Below, piece by piece: positions 4,515 through 16,816 of a stretch of 64,000 bases of DNA. This DNA is from an uncultured Bryobacteraceae bacterium (GTDB lineage Bacteria; Acidobacteriota; Terriglobia; Bryobacterales; Bryobacteraceae), in assembly GCA_937924525.1 (NCBI GenBank), contig CALDSU010000017.1, positions 1 through 64,000 on the forward strand, read 5' to 3'. The notes beneath the pieces are model-generated. The model did no database searches, had not been told where the DNA came from, and saw only the letters and a program-made list of their open reading frames with translations. The translations under genes were made by a program, and so were the position numbers. The stretch's first letter is position 1. Every line of letters starts with the position of its first letter.

Positions 4515-5344
4515 TGCGGTTGCTGGCGCTGCTGCTGGCCGGCGCGTCGCTGTCGGGCGCGCAGGAGGTGGCGCCCGGCTGCGCTTTGGTCCCTGGATGG
4601 ACGCAGGACGGGCCGGTCCGCACCTTTGTCGCCGACAACCTGTTCGACTACATGGACGGCAACGCCGAGGGCTACCTAATTTACCAGTTTCAGCGCATGA
4701 CCGGCGTCACGTGCAAGAAGGACGGCGTGACGCTGGTTTTCGACGTCTCCGAAATGGCCAGTCCCGACATGGCCTACGGGATCTTCGCCGCCAACCGCGA
4801 TCTCCGCCAGCCCGCCGCCAAGATCGGAATGGGCGGGCAGATTGTGCCGCGGCGGCTGATCTTCGCCAAGGACAAATACTACGTCGAGATCGCCGCCAAC
4901 CCGGCCGGGGATCACAGCGAGGTGCTGCGCGCCTTCGCCTCCGCCATGGAAAGCAAAATTCCGGGGCGCACGGAACTCCCCGACGCCATCGGCTGGTTCC
5001 CCAAAGAAGGCCTGGCCGCCGACTCGATCCGCATGGTGCCGGAGAGCGTACTCGGGTTGCGTATCCTGAGGCGCGGCTGGATGGCGCAGTATGAATCCGG
5101 GAAGGCGTTCCTGCTGCCCGAGGAGAGCCCTGGGAGCGCCGCGCAGGTGTTCGAGAAATTCAAGGCGCGCATCGGCCAGACTCAGGCTGCGAAAATTGGT
5201 GACGAGGGCTTTCTGGCGACCGACAAGTACCTGGGCGGCCTGGCCGTGTTCCGCAAGGGCCGTTACGTGGGCGGTTTCGCGAATCTCAAGGAAGGCCAGG
5301 ACGGCGCAGCGTTGGCCGCCGCCCTGGCAGCCAAGGTGCAGTAG
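4514..5344 (+). CDS. Secreted DUF6599-like protein of unknown function
   Basis: A protein of 276 residues starting at the ATG overlapping the stop of the ferredoxin-fused reductase, so the two are translationally coupled. A signal peptide covers residues 1-17 (MRLLALLLAGASLSGAQ). The body has FVADNLFDYMDGNAEGYL near residue 40 and a repeat-like FEKFKARIGQ / GFLATDKYLGG region near the C-terminus. I recall this as a family of conserved acidobacterial exported proteins (DUF6599), but with no known activity. Coupling suggests it works with the exported reductase. Confidence 0.75.
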   Translation: MRLLALLLAGASLSGAQEVAPGCALVPGWTQDGPVRTFVADNLFDYMDGNAEGYLIYQFQRMTGVTCKKDGVTLVFDVSEMASPDMAYGIFAANRDLRQPAAKIGMGGQIVPRRLIFAKDKYYVEIAANPAGDHSEVLRAFASAMESKIPGRTELPDAIGWFPKEGLAADSIRMVPESVLGLRILRRGWMAQYESGKAFLLPEESPGSAAQVFEKFKARIGQTQAAKIGDEGFLATDKYLGGLAVFRKGRYVGGFANLKEGQDGAALAAALAAKVQ

Positions 5345-10082: not shown

Positions 10083-10420
10083 AGATACCTCCAGATCAGC
10101 GTCCATATCTGCAATTGTCGCGCCAGTGTACGGAGTCAAGGCCAAGTTTGCCCGCAGCCCTGTCGTTCTTAAAGGCGGCGTCCCAAAGCAAGGAACGGAC
10201 CGACGCGGCGGGCGTCACGCAGGCCGGTCGGCTCGCGGGCGCTGGGACGCGGGAAACGGGTGGGCGAAAAATTGTTGCGATTTCCAACGGGCTGTTGTCG
10301 ATTCCAACAGAGCGCACCCGGGATCGGGCCGTTTCACGGTTCGCGATTTGTGTCCATCAATATAAGTCTCATTTTTGCAACAACATACGGGACATCGTCT
10401 CTTGTCAAGGAGGAGGTTGG

Positions 10421-10470
10421 ACGACCGGTGGTCGTTGAATTCTGCCCTCTTTGGTGTTGAAGTAATCAAC
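10421..10470. promoter_or_regulatory. Two dyad-symmetric sites, possible activator-binding sites
   Basis: ACGACC-ggt-GGTCGT at 10421-10435 and GTTGA-agtaa-TCAAC at 10456-10470 are perfect inverted repeats whose centres are 35 bp apart. They lie just upstream of a sigma-54-like element and 180-220 bp before the operon that encodes its own NtrC-type activator. The placement fits upstream activator sites, but that role is inferred. Confidence 0.35.
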
Positions 10471-10482
10471 ATATCGCACCGC

Positions 10483-10498
10483 TGGGGATTTCAACGCA
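10483..10498 (+). promoter_or_regulatory. Candidate sigma-54 (-24/-12) promoter
   Basis: TGGGGATTTCAACGCA keeps the TGG and GCA ends of the sigma-54 consensus with exact GG-N10-GC spacing, but lacks the preferred C/A/C and TT bases. It lies about 150 bp upstream of the start at 10646. Such partial matches arise by chance in GC-rich DNA, so this is a weak call supported mainly by the sigma-54 activator gene in the same operon. Confidence 0.3.
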
Positions 10499-10645
10499 GC
10501 CGCTGGGGCTTCGTCGTTATCCTTCTTGATTTCAATTGCTTACTGACAGACCGGGTTGGGTCAGGCACTTTGGCATTCCAAGTGTCCTATAGAAGGACGG
10601 ATGACGGGGCGCCTGAGCCCCCGAAACCGAAAGGAAGAAGAAGCC

Positions 10646-11302
10646 ATGACGGTCATTTTGGTATTGGTTACGTTTCTGGTGTTCGTGGTGCTGGACTGGG
10701 TGCTGCACCGGGCGGAAGCAAAGGTCCCTGTAACAGAGGAAGTGCCTGAAAGCGCAGGCGAAATCGTAGACGGATTTCTGGTTCCCGCCAAGTATCGCTA
10801 CCACGCGGGCCATGGCTGGCTGGATCGTGAGCGGCCCAACCGGATGCGGGTAGGAATCGATGAGTTTGCGGCCATGTTGGCCGGCGCGGTCGATGGGATC
10901 GAACTGCCGAAGCCCGGCCAATGGATCCGGCAGGGTCAGCGCGTGTTCTCGTTCCTGCGGGGCGGCGAACGGGCCGAGATGGTTTCCCCTATTGAAGGCG
11001 AAGTGGTGGAAGTGAACCAGGAAGTGCTGCGCAACCCCGAACTGCTGCGCGAAGACCCGTACGGTAAGGGTTGGCTGTTGGCCGTGCACGTCCCCGACGA
11101 GGAAGGAACTCTTCGTAACCTGTTGCCCATCAACCTGGTGGCGGACTGGATGCGGGAGAACGTCGAGCGATTCTACCAGTTGCAGCCTCAGTTGGCCGGT
11201 GCGACAGCGGCCGACGGCGGACGCCCCACGGGCGACCTCTGGAAAGACAAGACTGCCGAAGAGTGGAAGCAGACGGTTTCCAAGTTTTTCCTGACGGCCT
11301 GA
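10646..11302 (+). CDS. Membrane-tethered GcvH-like protein lacking the lipoyl lysine
   Basis: A protein of 218 residues from the ATG at 10646, behind AAGGAAG. Residues 3-20 form one transmembrane helix followed by basic residues (HRAEAK). Residues 50-150 match the glycine-cleavage H-protein fold: GWLDRERPNRMRVGIDEFA, then SPIEGEVVEVNQEVLRNPEL and EDPYGKGWLLAVHV. In GcvH the lipoylated Lys sits in an ESVKA turn; here that turn is LRGGE, with G107 at the Lys position. It cannot carry lipoate there. It leads an operon with HybA- and HybB-like genes, so it is likely a structural subunit of that membrane complex. There are no other glycine-cleavage genes in the window. Confidence 0.8.
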   Translation: MTVILVLVTFLVFVVLDWVLHRAEAKVPVTEEVPESAGEIVDGFLVPAKYRYHAGHGWLDRERPNRMRVGIDEFAAMLAGAVDGIELPKPGQWIRQGQRVFSFLRGGERAEMVSPIEGEVVEVNQEVLRNPELLREDPYGKGWLLAVHVPDEEGTLRNLLPINLVADWMRENVERFYQLQPQLAGATAADGGRPTGDLWKDKTAEEWKQTVSKFFLTA

Positions 11303-11386
11303 GAATGGCGCAGGAATTGCAGTCACGTTTGCGCTGGGCGAACTGCGGAAATGGTCCAGCACACCAACCTGAGGAGTGGAGCGGAC

Positions 11387-12157
11387 ATGGCGAAGGCAAT
11401 CTTATTCGACAGCACGCGCTGCGTGGGTTGCCGCGAATGCGAAAGGGCGTGCGCGGAGAAGTGGGGAAACCCATACAACGACCAGATCGCCGAGGTGGAG
11501 AAACTCTCCGCCCAGAAGTTGACGACGATCGAAACCCACGGAGAGCGCTTTCAGCGCCGCCTGTGCCTGCACTGCGCGGAACCCACCTGCGTCTCGGTCT
11601 GTCCGGTGGGTGCTTTCGAGAAGACGGCCTTGGGTCCGGTGGTTTACGACGAGAAGAAGTGTATCGGGTGCCGGTATTGCATCATGGCGTGTCCCTTCCA
11701 GGTGCCCGCCTATGAGTGGTCGGAGATCCTGCCTCGGGTGCGCAAGTGCGACATGTGCTACGCGCGGCAAGCGAAAGGAGAACCAACCGCTTGCACTGAA
11801 GTCTGCCCGGCGGACGCCACGCTTTCCGGGGACTACGAGGCGATGGTTGCTGAAGCGAGAAAACGCATCGCCGACAGTCCGGGCGACTACCAACCGTACA
11901 TCTACGGATTACGCGAGGTAGGCGGAACCTCGGTGCTGTTCCTGTCGGCGGTTCCGTTCAACGAACTGGGCCTCCGCACCGATTTGCCCCAGTCGCCCTT
12001 GCCGCCTCTGACCTGGAGCGTGCTGTCCGCCGTGCCGGATATCGCCACATCCGGCGCGGTATTAATGGGCGGCATCTACTGGATCACCCATCGGCGTGAG
12101 GCGGTCGCCAAAGCCGAAGGCCGAAGGCCCGGCAGGCAGAAGGAGGTGCGGCAATGA
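11387..12157 (+). CDS. HybA-like ferredoxin subunit with four [4Fe-4S] clusters
   Basis: A protein of 256 residues; the start at 11387 follows GAGGAG and gives an N-terminus beginning at the first cluster. Sixteen cysteines form four clusters: C12/15/18/22, C60/63/68 with C140 region partners, C92/95/98/102 and C121/124/136/140, in the pattern of HybA, NrfC and DsrO electron-transfer subunits. A hydrophobic segment near residues 215-240 anchors it to the membrane. Unlike periplasmic HybA there is no Tat signal, so its clusters should face the cytoplasm. It would relay electrons between the NrfD-like partner and an unseen donor or acceptor. ATGA overlap with the next gene. Confidence 0.88.
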   Translation: MAKAILFDSTRCVGCRECERACAEKWGNPYNDQIAEVEKLSAQKLTTIETHGERFQRRLCLHCAEPTCVSVCPVGAFEKTALGPVVYDEKKCIGCRYCIMACPFQVPAYEWSEILPRVRKCDMCYARQAKGEPTACTEVCPADATLSGDYEAMVAEARKRIADSPGDYQPYIYGLREVGGTSVLFLSAVPFNELGLRTDLPQSPLPPLTWSVLSAVPDIATSGAVLMGGIYWITHRREAVAKAEGRRPGRQKEVRQ

Positions 12158-13311
12158 GGCGCGTGCCAGTCTGGAAATGGGTCTTCATTGCCTTGATGGC
12201 CGCTGGGGCATATGCCACCTATCTCCGTGCTTTTCACGGATTGGGTGCGGTCACCCACTTGAGCGACCAGTTCCCCTGGGGCATCTGGGTGGCTTTCGAT
12301 GTGCTCTGCGGCGTCGGCCTGGCTGCCGGCGGCTTCACCCTGGTGGCGGTTGTCCATATTTTCAATATCGAAAAATACCGTCCGATCCTCCGTCCGGCGA
12401 TCCTGACGGCCTTTCTCGGTTATCTGCTGGTGGTGCTGGCGCTGATGTTCGACCTGGGACGTCCGGACCGGATCTGGCACGCGCTGGTGATGTGGAATCC
12501 CCGCTCGGTGATGTTTGAAGTGGCCTGGTGCGTCATGCTCTACACCACCGTGCTGTTCCTCGAGTTCCTGCCGGTCGTGCTCGAGAAATTCAACCTCCAG
12601 GCTCCGCTGAAACTGCTGCATGCCATCTCGGTCCCGCTCATCATCGCGGGAATTGTCTTGTCCACGCTCCATCAGAGTTCGCTGGGAACCTTGTATCTGA
12701 TCGTTCCGCACAAGCTGGATCCGTTGTGGTACTCGCCCTTGCTGCCGCTGTTCTTCTTCCTTTCGGCGATTTGCGTGGGCTTGGCCATGACGATTTTTGA
12801 GTCCTGGCATTCCAGCCGCGCCTTCGGACGGCAACTGGAGGTCTCGCTCCTCGGCGGCATGTCCCGAGTCCTCGCGGTACTTCTCTCCGTGTACCTGGTG
12901 CTGCGATTCATGGATCTGAGCCGCCGGGGAGCGATCGGGCGGATCTGGGAGCCGCGGATCGAGAGTTACCTGTTTCTTCTCGAAGTCGCGCTGATGGCGC
13001 TGCCTGCCCTGTTGATCTTCCGCGGCCACACCCGGCGTCCGGCGGTGCTCTATGCGGCCTCGGTCATGGCGGTGTTCGGGTTCGTTACGAACCGGCTCAA
13101 CGTCGCGGTGACGGGCATGGAGCGCGCTTCCGGGGTGGTCTACCTTCCCAAGTGGACCGAACTGGCCGTAACGCTCGCGATTATCGCGCTAGGTTTTGCT
13201 ATCTTCCGCCTGGCGGTCCAATACCTGCCGATCTTTGAAGAGACGCACGAGGAGAACCGGGCGGGCAACGGCGCCCAGGCGGAGGAGGATTATCTGCTGA
13301 CCCGGGCCTAG
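12154..13311 (+). CDS. HybB/NrfD-family quinone-interacting membrane protein
   Basis: A protein of 385 residues with about ten transmembrane helices. It starts in the ATGA overlap with the ferredoxin gene. Family features include FPWGIWVAFDVLCGVGLAAG in the first helices, LMFDLGRPDRIWH, MWNPRSVMFEVAWCVMLY and LSTLHQSSLGTLYLI. This is the HybB/PsrC-NrfD type that exchanges electrons with menaquinone or ubiquinone in the membrane. The C-terminal tail is hydrophilic and acidic. It pairs with the HybA-like protein upstream to form a quinone oxidoreductase module. Confidence 0.9.
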   Translation: MRRVPVWKWVFIALMAAGAYATYLRAFHGLGAVTHLSDQFPWGIWVAFDVLCGVGLAAGGFTLVAVVHIFNIEKYRPILRPAILTAFLGYLLVVLALMFDLGRPDRIWHALVMWNPRSVMFEVAWCVMLYTTVLFLEFLPVVLEKFNLQAPLKLLHAISVPLIIAGIVLSTLHQSSLGTLYLIVPHKLDPLWYSPLLPLFFFLSAICVGLAMTIFESWHSSRAFGRQLEVSLLGGMSRVLAVLLSVYLVLRFMDLSRRGAIGRIWEPRIESYLFLLEVALMALPALLIFRGHTRRPAVLYAASVMAVFGFVTNRLNVAVTGMERASGVVYLPKWTELAVTLAIIALGFAIFRLAVQYLPIFEETHEENRAGNGAQAEEDYLLTRA

Positions 13312-13314
13312 CTC

Positions 13315-14939
13315 ATGCGCAAGACCCAGCCGAAGATCCGCACCAGCCTGGCGCTCAAGCTCGGATTGTGCTTGGCGGCCAGCACGGTGACGATCTTCGG
13401 CTTGTTCGGTTTCTCCATGATCGCGCTGCACCAGCGCGAGTCGGAGTCTCTGGTGCTGGCCAGCGCCGACCGCATCGGCGACATCATCCAGCGCAGCACT
13501 CGCTACCAGATGCTGCACAACGACCGGGAAGCGCTGTACCAGGTGATCCGGGACATCGGCAGCGAACCGGGACTGGTCCGGATCCGGATTTTCAACGAAG
13601 AAGGGCGGATCAGCTTTTCCACCGATCCCAATGAAGTCGGCAAGGTGGTGGATAAGTCCGCAGAAGCCTGCTACGGGTGCCATGCCAAGGAAGCGCCCCT
13701 CACGCGCCTGAACCGTCCGGACCGCACCCGCATTTTCGAGGAGAACGGCCAGCGGGTCCTGGCGCAGATCCGTCCGATTGAAAACGAACCCGCCTGTAGC
13801 AATGGCGCCTGCCACGCGCATCCGCCGAGTCAGCAGATCCTGGGGGTGATCGACTCCCAACTCTCCCTCCAACCGGTGGATCTGCAAATCGCCCGCCACC
13901 AGCAAGTGCTGATGTATTCGACGGCGGGCGCGGTCGCGCTCATGACGCTCATCAGTCTGATTTTTGTGTGGGTGGTGCTGCACCGTCCGGTCCAAGAACT
14001 GATTACCGGGACCCACCGCGTGGCGGGCGGCGACCTCGGGCACCGCCTGCGCGTACACTCCCAGGACGAACTGGGAGACCTGGCCGAGTCGTTTAACCAG
14101 ATGACGGAGGAGCTGGCGCGGGCGCTCGAGGAGTTGTCCGCGCGGGCCGATACGCTGGAAGAACACGTCGAGGAGAAGAAGCGCGAACTGGAGCACGCGC
14201 AGACCGTGCTGCTCGGCAGCGAGAAATACGCTTCCCTGGGCAAACTGGCGGCCACGGTCGCTCACGAAGTGAACAATCCACTGTTCGGCATCCTGACGTA
14301 CGCCCGGCTGGGCCGGAAACAACTGGCCGAAACCGGCGTGTCCGGTCCGGCGGCCGCGCAGCTGGATGAGCAGTTGCAGGTGATCGAGCGCGAGAGCCGG
14401 CGGTGCGGCGAGATTATGCGCAATCTGCTCACGTTCGCCCGGCAGGCGCCCAGCCGCCGCGACCGGTCGAACCTGAACGAACTGGTGCAGCGCGCGGTGA
14501 CGCTGGTGCGGCATCAGCTTGAATTGCAGGGCATCGCCCTGGAGACCGACTACGCCGCGGACCTTCCGCCCGTGGCGTGCGATCCGGGCCAGATCCAGCA
14601 AGCCACGCTGGTGTTGCTGGTAAATGCCTACGAAGCCATGCCGCAGGGCGGTTCGTTGCGGGTGGCGACGGCCTTCGACGCCGCCACGGGCGAGGCGATC
14701 ATCCGGGTCAAAGACACGGGCAGCGGAATCCCTGCCGAGGTGCTCGGGTCGATTTTCGAGCCCTTTTTCACCACCAAGGAGGAGCAGCAGCGCACCGGGC
14801 TGGGATTGGCGGTCGCCAAGAGCATCATCGAGCAGCACGGCGGCCGCGTGCTGGTGGATACGCGGCCCGGCGAGGGCACTGAGTTCCGGTTTGTCCTGCC
14901 CTTGCACGCCGCCGAACTGCAGCCGGCCGGAGGCGCGGC

Positions 14940-14943
<4 letters not shown>
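13315..14943 (+). CDS. Sensor histidine kinase with haem-c-like motifs in its periplasmic domain
   Basis: A protein of 542 residues. There are transmembrane helices at about 12-37 and 198-222, enclosing an extracytoplasmic domain of 160 residues. That domain has C119-Y-G-C122-H123, a canonical CXXCH haem-c motif, and C161-SNGA-C166-H167, a wider CX4CH version. After the second helix come HAMP (224-275), a coiled coil, a HisKA domain with the phospho-acceptor H317 in TVAHEVNNPL, and an HATPase domain (VRVKDTGSGIPAE; TGLGLAVAKSI). It most likely senses redox state or a small ligand through haem. The gene lies 3 bp after the NrfD-like gene and overlaps its response regulator by ATGA. Confidence 0.9.
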
Positions 14944-16288
<1,345 letters not shown>

Positions 16289-16292
<4 letters not shown>

Positions 16293-16816
16293 AACCGATT
16301 CATTTGCTGCCGGCCGGCGAAGCCGTCCGGCTGGCGGAACTGGACGGTTTGGCCGCCGGTTTGGCGCGGGTGTTTCGCGTCTCGTGCCACGTCCGCGAGG
16401 ATCTCCTCGACATTGGCTTCGCCTTTGACGCGGCGCGCAACCAATACTACAGCACCGCGATTCTGGAGGCGCTCATGGCCGTGAGCGCGGGAGTCCGCGT
16501 GCTGGGCGTCACCGCGGCCGACCTGTACGTCCCCGTCCTGACCTTCGTGTTCGGAGAAGCGCAGTTGTCCGGCGACGTCGCACTGGTTTCCCTTCACCGG
16601 TTACGCGAACGTTTCTACGGCCTGCCGGCTCGCGCCGAACTCGAGCAGGAGCGTCTGCTCAAGGAGGCCCTCCACGAACTGGGACACACCTTCGGACTCC
16701 GGCACTGCCGCGACTGGCGTTGCGTCATGTCTTCCAGCCACGACATCAGCCGGATCGACGCCAAAGGCGCCGAGTTTTGCCCGGCCTGCCGGGCGAGAAT
16801 CCAGGACGCGGAGTGA
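16289..16816 (+). CDS. amzA: Archaemetzincin-family zinc metalloprotease
   Basis: A protein of 175 residues from a GTG overlapping the preceding stop (GTGA), so it is coupled to the NtrC-type gene. It has the archaemetzincin signature HELGHTFGLRHC, with HEXXH zinc ligands and the third His, then RDWRCVM and a late CPAC, giving the family's four-cysteine second zinc site. There is no signal peptide, so it acts in the cytoplasm. Bacterial archaemetzincins have no well-defined substrate. Its place as the last gene of a redox-signalling operon is unusual. Other zincins are excluded by the HC and CVM pattern. Confidence 0.88.

Follow-up and report, generated by a model that had tools for sequence, protein, structure and literature searches.

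A proposed GcvH-associated, Hmc-type quinone module with its own two-component system and archaemetzincin, a putative self-regulated redox unit of Acidobacteriota

What might an iron–sulfur (Fe-S) protein and an NrfD-type quinone protein do where no catalytic subunit stands beside them? The question is raised by three adjoining genes in a 64,000-nucleotide stretch of DNA (the window), part of contig C17 in the 5.5 Mb genome of an uncultured Bryobacteraceae bacterium, which encode a protein like the glycine cleavage H protein (GcvH), an Fe-S protein and an NrfD protein. From the neighbourhoods of homologous loci we found that these genes belong to a unit of six, completed by a histidine kinase, a sigma54-dependent response regulator and an archaemetzincin. 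We read the set as a GcvH-associated Hmc-type quinone module. Free-standing Fe-S–NrfD quinone modules are known, and the tie to a GcvH-fold protein, a haem-type sensor system and an archaemetzincin appears to be new; a literature search returned no paper describing this six-gene set.

The extent of the unit was judged from 80 homologous loci, the best 80 of 132 confirmed in a search with the NrfD protein. These are close relatives (56–71% identity) chosen by NrfD alone, and by record title they are mostly Acidobacteriota with three Ignavibacteriota loci; two of the records, L057 (Arcobacter sp. by title) and L087 (Candidatus Eisenbacteria), may be mislabelled bins. Counting only loci whose contig extends far enough, NrfD is accompanied by the Fe-S gene in 76 of 76 loci and by the GcvH-like gene in 69 of 71 (with GcvH orientation reversed in five loci, L100, L103, L104, L109 and L110). 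The histidine kinase is present in 67 of 67 loci, the response regulator in 60 of 60 and the archaemetzincin in 54 of 56, and the kinase lies immediately 3' of NrfD in all 76 loci that have both. No further gene family recurs: the widest called family beyond the six reaches 8 of the 80 loci, and two wider called families, in 49 and 10 loci, largely coincide in position with the set itself (76 of 85 members of the first, 10 of 10 of the second). The open reading frame (ORF) callers used for the locus families, own-genome neighbourhoods and deep relatives were simple ones, and antisense ORFs displaced some real genes.

The original prediction had described the first three genes as a respiratory-like unit lacking a catalytic subunit, and had set aside the genes after them as regulatory. 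The identity of the three genes was confirmed (Pfam GCV_H, four cluster motifs and PF03916), as was their co-occurrence elsewhere, and no catalytic subunit adjoins the set in the window. Nor does one recur beside the 80 homologous loci, contrary to the idea that homologues might always include it. The boundary was drawn too short, however: the unit comprises six genes, and given the kinase and regulator counts we rejected the possibility that the regulators are chance neighbours. At one locus (L101, 14772–20153) a paralogous set lies directly 3' of the first set's peptidase and consists of a kinase without an evident sensor domain (by reading), a regulator, GcvH, Fe-S and NrfD. The features of the window's set are collected in Table 1.

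Table 1. Genes and candidate regulatory sites of the six-gene set, in window coordinates (PWM, position weight matrix).
Feature	Position	Strand	Basis or remark
Two operator-like palindromes	10270..10312	.	Sites at 10270 and 10290; PWM scores 18.8, 18.6; consensus cTGTTG-aaAWTt-CaACAg
Two further operator-like palindromes	10452..10499	.	Sites at 10452 and 10477; PWM scores 18.9, 14.8
Degenerate sigma54-like promoter 5' of the GcvH-like gene	10569..10587	+	GT instead of GC at -12
Membrane-anchored GcvH-fold protein without lipoyl lysine	10646..11302	+	Pfam GCV_H, structure model
Sigma54-like promoter between GcvH-like and Fe-S genes	11306..11321	+	TGGCGCAGGAATTGCA, score 12 of 12
Four-cluster HmcB/HybA-like Fe-S protein, no Tat signal, hydrophobic C-tail	11387..12157	+	NCBIfam, 16 Cys
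HmcC/HybB-like NrfD quinone protein, 10 hydropathy peaks	12154..13311	+	PF03916, HmcC/HybB matches
Histidine kinase, predicted periplasmic domain with c-type haem motifs CxxCH and CX4CH	13315..14943	+	Pfam, profile
Sigma54-dependent response regulator	14940..16292	+	Pfam Sigma54_activat, Response_reg, HTH_8
Archaemetzincin (peptidase family M54)	16289..16816	+	PF07998; GTG start overlaps the response regulator stop

Evidence that the module may perform quinone chemistry comes from its NrfD protein, which belongs to the NrfD/PsrC superfamily (PF03916, 86.5 bits, cut-off 25.8). The closest named NCBIfam relatives of the Fe-S and NrfD proteins are HmcB/HmcC, followed by HybA/HybB; the window NrfD scores 315.3 bits against HmcC (cut-off 550) and 307.2 bits against HybB, below both cut-offs, and 142.3 of 570 against QrcD. 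Residues of the quinone site of HybB and of its proton half-channels have been listed (PMC8076601). The window protein shares 119 of 377 aligned residues with HybB and retains 17 of the 25 listed positions, including R89, Y99, E148 and H184, which were mutationally tested in HybB (PMC8076601). Eleven of the retained residues (D58, D109, S129, E133, R89, Y99, Y141, E148, S187, E291 and R329) are identical in all 81 family members, and H184 and S186 are kept in 80 of the 81. This retention argues for genuine quinone chemistry, and the quinone-linked module proposed at the outset is likely to be functional.

The Fe-S protein carries 16 cysteines that are invariant across 41 aligned sequences, and it too falls below the curated cut-offs of its best NCBIfam matches (HmcB, 249.8 bits with a cut-off of 420, and HybA, 186.9 bits). 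We place its start at the ATG at 11387, because the frame from 11384 reads D-M-A-K. No twin-arginine translocation (Tat) motif precedes the first cysteine. An RRx[FLIVM] string was found in just one of 79 family members, in an upstream ORF extension of L038, and the N-termini of the five remaining proteins in the window's set, inspected by reading, show no Tat signal either. The hydrophobic tail of the Fe-S protein is followed by a positive stretch and, by eye, looks like the tails of Tat-exported relatives. Charge counts place the N-terminus of NrfD inside, as in HybB, in 80 of 80 family members; counted on internal loops alone, the charges agree in sign in all 9 of 9 Tat-type relatives, and among the Tat-less deep relatives they do so clearly in 8 of 11. 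Both the orientation of NrfD and the tail of the Fe-S protein suggest clusters at the periplasmic face, and they do not support the initial expectation that the clusters face the cytoplasm.

The third partner has the fold of an H-protein and lacks its lipoyl lysine. It matches Pfam GCV_H at 74.6 bits (cut-off 22.2) and falls below the cut-offs of both NCBIfam gcvH (74 of 115.85 bits) and PRK01202 (81.9 of 117). A structure model (pLDDT 89.6, N-terminal helix at residues 2–22) superimposes on the H-protein 1htp with Z 17.6 over 131 residues at 1.9 Å; across the H-proteins compared, except 5a35, Z ranges from 13.4 to 17.6 and TM, by target length, from 0.75 to 0.90. The lipoyl position, whose alignment column is set by the H-protein motif, is G107 in the window protein, glycine in 59 of 73 family members and lysine in one of the 73; 57 of the 73 have a lysine or arginine two positions later, and the hairpin of the family profile aligns without gaps to solved H-proteins. 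The likeness to the glycine cleavage H protein is one of fold, from which the window protein departs by its N-terminal membrane helix, its C-terminal helices and the replaced lysine. As that lysine is absent, we rejected a lipoate-carrier role of the kind known from the Hdr-like/LbpA sulfur pathway (PMC6067878). At least two lysines or arginines follow the helix in 65 of 73 members, and in all 73 none stands at residues 1–4, so that the GcvH domain is predicted to be cytoplasmic. In two of the Ignavibacteriota loci (L107, 9312–10133, and L113, 3111–3914) a second, soluble GcvH-like gene lies between NrfD and the kinase, and its product has the N-terminal motif CVWMDAGLVNYKLC...CPFD.

More distant relatives reveal a sister subtype. 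GcvH profile matches occur in 37 of 247 sampled Acidobacteriota genomes, where a match alone does not signify the whole set. From these matches we hand-picked 31 deep-relative loci and read the Fe-S proteins in 22. Because antisense ORFs displace real genes, the gene lists of these loci are incomplete and the absence of a gene there is weak evidence. Many of the same parts are found in them in rearranged order, frequently with two GcvH genes. Nine of the 22 Fe-S proteins have a Tat signal, 12 lack one and one sits in a Qrc-like set; L174 was assigned to the Tat group by hand, the search pattern having missed its signal. In a tree, a single branch (99/95 support) divides the nine Tat proteins from 27 Tat-less ones. 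A small cytochrome c, of c7 type or class III, accompanies six of the nine Tat-type sets and is lacking from three within the stretch read; the cytochromes of L156 and L163 were called c7 by eye, and the ORF start of the latter is uncertain.

Qrc-like operons also keep company with GcvH-like genes. At L181 one with two such genes adjoins a block of response regulator, archaemetzincin and histidine kinase. In the window's own genome (contig C3, L114, 7852–14276, minus strand) two GcvH-like genes flank a Qrc-like operon that encodes a multihaem cytochrome, a Tat-bearing molybdopterin-like subunit, an Fe-S protein and NrfD; both GcvH-like genes have cysteine motifs, and the product of one is membrane-anchored.

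Several lines of evidence suggest that the set regulates itself. The kinase has HAMP, HisKA and HATPase_c domains, with Mcp40H-20_sensor below its cut-off, and its profile matches haem PAS structures weakly (3b42, E 0.0004; 3b47, E 0.045; no single stretch significant). From the haem motifs and these matches it may, weakly, be taken as a putative haem c PAS-type sensor. The response regulator combines receiver, sigma54 and Fis-type domains. The last gene is an archaemetzincin by PF07998 (90.7 bits, cut-off 24.4) and by the HExxH site HELGHTFGLRHC seen in its sequence; a literature search on archaemetzincin in bacteria and in operons returned unrelated work only.

Upstream of these genes, palindromic sites are concentrated to a degree that is unusual for the sequence at large. 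The simple dyad TGT.G-N7-C.ACA is found 48 times within the 25.5 kb of upstream regions versus 75 times in all 1.325 Mb, and sites of a PWM derived from it precede GcvH in 72 of 73 regions, a count made on the same upstream regions on which the matrix was trained. Outside that fit stand the dyad and the deep relatives, in which the same matrix finds site clusters at 12 of the 31 loci versus none in 50 shuffles; four of the 12 belong to Tat-type sets. With no more than one mismatch allowed, a tight pattern has six matches in the own genome. Three are at the module locus, two of them the pair nearest the upstream end in Table 1, and no other own-genome locus holds two. The other three single sites (in the dnaN–dnaA intergenic region, inside a regulator gene and 5' of a polX-like gene) we took as chance, and we rejected a wider regulon; the names dnaA, dnaN and polX are our presumption from the translations. 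A looser pattern was uninformative, with 23 genome sites versus 12 for a reversed control.

Promoter-like boxes of the -24/-12 type add to this picture. Scores of 10 or more were found 5' of GcvH in 18 of 73 loci, versus about one in shuffled sequence and one on the reverse strand, and 5' of the Fe-S gene in 8 of 77 loci versus 0.8 in shuffles, which preserve single-base composition only; at score 9 the reverse strand is also above shuffles (18 of 73). In several deep-relative loci a sigma54-like box stands between the operator sites and the first gene, and by eye the degenerate box in the window occupies the position of better boxes in relatives. The exact consensus is not enriched genome-wide (3 and 3 versus 6 and 4 in the control), nor is it enriched within the window at one mismatch. 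From operator palindromes together with a sigma54-type promoter, the six-gene set is probably turned on by its own regulator, which would bind the palindromes.

These features place the module among known systems without making it identical to any of them. The original prediction held that known complexes of this type also encode an active-site subunit, which is not supported: QrcB has neither redox cofactor nor enzymatic activity (PMC13059093), Hmc is described as an assembly of six redox proteins with a cytochrome in the place of the catalytic subunit (PMC10924467), and in Nhc a nine-haem cytochrome takes that place (PMC8076601). Fe-S–HybB pairs, free-standing or with cytochromes, are already published (PMC10924467), and the two HybB and two NhcC species tallied in Acidobacteria by PMC8076601 may include the present family.

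Closest by family match is the Hmc complex of sulfate reducers (HmcABCDEF), with which the set shares its best matches, HmcB and HmcC, and the combination of a tail-anchored Fe-S protein with a HybB-like protein (PMC10924467). It differs in scoring below the curated cut-offs, in lacking an HmcA-type cytochrome, any other additional redox gene and a Tat signal on the Fe-S protein, and in adding GcvH, kinase, regulator and archaemetzincin; no multihaem HmcA or other hmc gene was found at the window locus, although no name-based search covered HmcE and HmcF. Nhc and the Fe-S–HybB–octahaem modules likewise pair Fe-S with NrfD/HybB and replace the Mo or NiFe enzyme by a multihaem cytochrome (PMC8076601, PMC10924467), the octahaem protein being of the tetrathionate reductase family and hence perhaps catalytic (PMC10924467). 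The window's set, in contrast, encodes no cytochrome, and the sister subtype has c7 or class III cytochromes together with GcvH, kinase, regulator and archaemetzincin. HybAB of Escherichia coli hydrogenase-2 offers the same two-protein architecture and the functional NrfD residues counted above, but HybA has a Tat signal and the window has no hydrogenase subunits: none of NiFe group 1 or 2 was found at the locus, in an analysis that did not search for the small subunit. QrcABCD is alike in its proton-coupled Fe-S–NrfD redox pair and differs in that no QrcA or QrcB equivalent is present at the window locus.

We put about even confidence in the following reading: the set is a self-regulated six-gene redox unit whose Fe-S–NrfD pair links the menaquinone pool to a partner on the periplasmic side. 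The pair, of the Hmc/Nhc/HybAB kind, would shuttle electrons between the two, with proton uptake via NrfD. The non-lipoylated GcvH-fold protein may be bound at the cytoplasmic face, in a structural or docking role. The kinase with its haem motifs and the sigma54 regulator would detect a periplasmic redox cue and turn the operon on via the palindromes and the -24/-12 promoter, and the archaemetzincin may be a conserved accessory protease. In the sister subtype, with its Tat-bearing Fe-S protein, a small multihaem cytochrome c is the likeliest partner; as the window's set has neither cytochrome nor Tat signal, its partner would be encoded elsewhere or be one not yet recognised.

A number of observations weigh against this reading. 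Eight of the listed HybB residues (S105, S190, T63, Y77, H85, S95, E268 and H200) are replaced in the window NrfD. Its periplasmic-side (P) and cytoplasmic-side (N) internal loops tie at nine lysines or arginines each, the counts are also undecided in L177 (8/9), L178 (9/9) and L176 (9/8), and a greater conservation of P-side than of N-side loops does not reach significance (p 0.096). The hydrophobic stretch of the Fe-S tail is, by a by-eye estimate, marginal as a membrane helix, and since the window-type protein has no Tat signal, its periplasmic placement requires an unknown export route. Finally, no match to a c7 triheme cytochrome was found in the own genome, and one Tat-less set (L186) has a c7 gene immediately adjoining, so Tat signal and cytochrome are not strictly linked.

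Among the alternatives, the GcvH–Fe-S–NrfD proteins could be the input arm of the two-component system, with the redox state of the quinone pool reported by electrons passed to the c-type haems of the kinase. The constant position of the kinase directly after NrfD fits this idea, as does its being, with its haem motifs, the only other predicted periplasmic redox protein of the window's set; ORFs with at least three CxxCH motifs lie near the module in only 3 of the 80 close loci (L067, L080 and L100). Further points in its favour are the paralogous set of L101, whose kinase shows no evident sensor domain, and the concentration of the tight operator matches at this one locus. However, switching on the entire set from multiple operators would be more typical of an enzyme than of a sensor, the first haem motif is lost in 5 of 37 aligned kinases (L069, L081, L082, L036 and L075), and the proton-path residues of NrfD are retained beyond what a sensor needs. 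We consider this explanation unlikely. The same low expectation applies to its extension, an electron-transfer sensor rather than a respiratory enzyme, in which the kinase would govern its own operon and, jointly with the archaemetzincin, a response by proteolysis; if true, it would be a two-component system fed electrons by a dedicated membrane complex.

An unlinked partner was sought among 61 relatives, 21 with the module's GcvH (E below 1e-37) and 40 without. None of the four families searched is present in all 21 module-bearing genomes, and NiFe hydrogenases come closest with 17; as universal partners, NiFe hydrogenase, PhsA/PsrA-like proteins, c7 cytochrome and [FeFe] hydrogenase were each rejected on their occurrence across the 21. 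The c7 cytochromes above cut-off are found in 7 of 21 module-bearing relatives versus 4 of 40 others (p 0.04). For molybdoenzymes, those of the own genome were listed and PhsA-like proteins alone were traced across relatives. The own genome also has a formate-dehydrogenase-like operon (L131, 6302–10729, contig C12) whose catalytic frame has an in-frame TGA, possibly selenocysteine.

A second alternative is that the module supplies the B and C parts of a respiratory enzyme, the Fe-S protein crossing the membrane as a hitchhiker on a Tat-exported catalytic A subunit that is encoded at another locus. A precedent exists in Tat-less, tail-anchored Fe-S proteins encoded beside a Tat-bearing [FeFe] hydrogenase that probably carries them (PMC10924467). 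No such Tat-bearing partner is encoded near the window's set, and [FeFe] hydrogenase was detected in only one of the 61 relatives. The own genome does contain two orphan Tat-bearing PhsA/PsrA-like molybdoenzymes (L130, 5779–8016, minus strand, and L129, 5683–7941, plus strand; contigs C7 and C11), with no Fe-S or NrfD gene called within about 6 kb and one of them beside a DmsD-like chaperone. PhsA-like homologues (E <= 1e-100) are commoner in module-bearing relatives, at 5 of 21 versus 1 of 40, but at this threshold they are absent from 16 of the 21; the search across relatives covered only part of the A-subunit families. No operator lies 5' of the PhsA-like genes, with one isolated site 3.7 kb past the L129 gene and none at L130, and NiFe hydrogenases of group-1 size are found in 3 of 21 versus 4 of 40. 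A separately encoded A subunit is, in our judgement, quite improbable.

An equally low standing goes to the initial expectation of cytoplasm-facing clusters, with electrons passing to or from a soluble protein of the cytosol, for instance ferredoxin or a soluble group-3-like hydrogenase. The missing Tat signal would then be no puzzle, the Tat-less sets fall together on a single side of the tree, and SoeABC is a predicted cytoplasm-facing NrfD complex (PMC8076601). NiFe hydrogenases of any type (E <= 1e-14) are found in 17 of 21 module-bearing relatives versus 8 of the 40 without it (Fisher p 6e-6); inside the family the counts are 17 of 19 versus 7 of 18 (p 0.002), where the threshold was chosen after seeing the data and the statistics ignore ancestry. 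This association is a correlation only, which a shared anaerobic lifestyle or ancestry may underlie. Against such a topology, NrfD is not inverted in any of the 80 family members, and the Tat-type controls have the same sign; in this orientation the quinone site lies on the P side, beyond reach of an N-side Fe-S protein, and the C-tail resembles that of Tat-exported relatives. The PF00374 matches of the own genome are closest to Vhu/sulfhydrogenase models. It has two soluble-type NiFe hydrogenase clusters (L134, 3466–9863, and L135, 6206–10771), one Vhu/Hox-like with Nuo-like subunits and the other sulfhydrogenase-like. Elsewhere in the window, a DUF6599 protein (4520–5344) adjoins aldo/keto-reductase-like genes and is unrelated to the module.

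Many Acidobacteriota and three Ignavibacteriota loci have kept the six-gene set, which poses the puzzle of how a Tat-less, tail-anchored four-cluster protein would reach or serve an NrfD with a periplasm-facing quinone site. Additionally, the module supplies a testable context for archaemetzincin and for odd GcvH-like genes.

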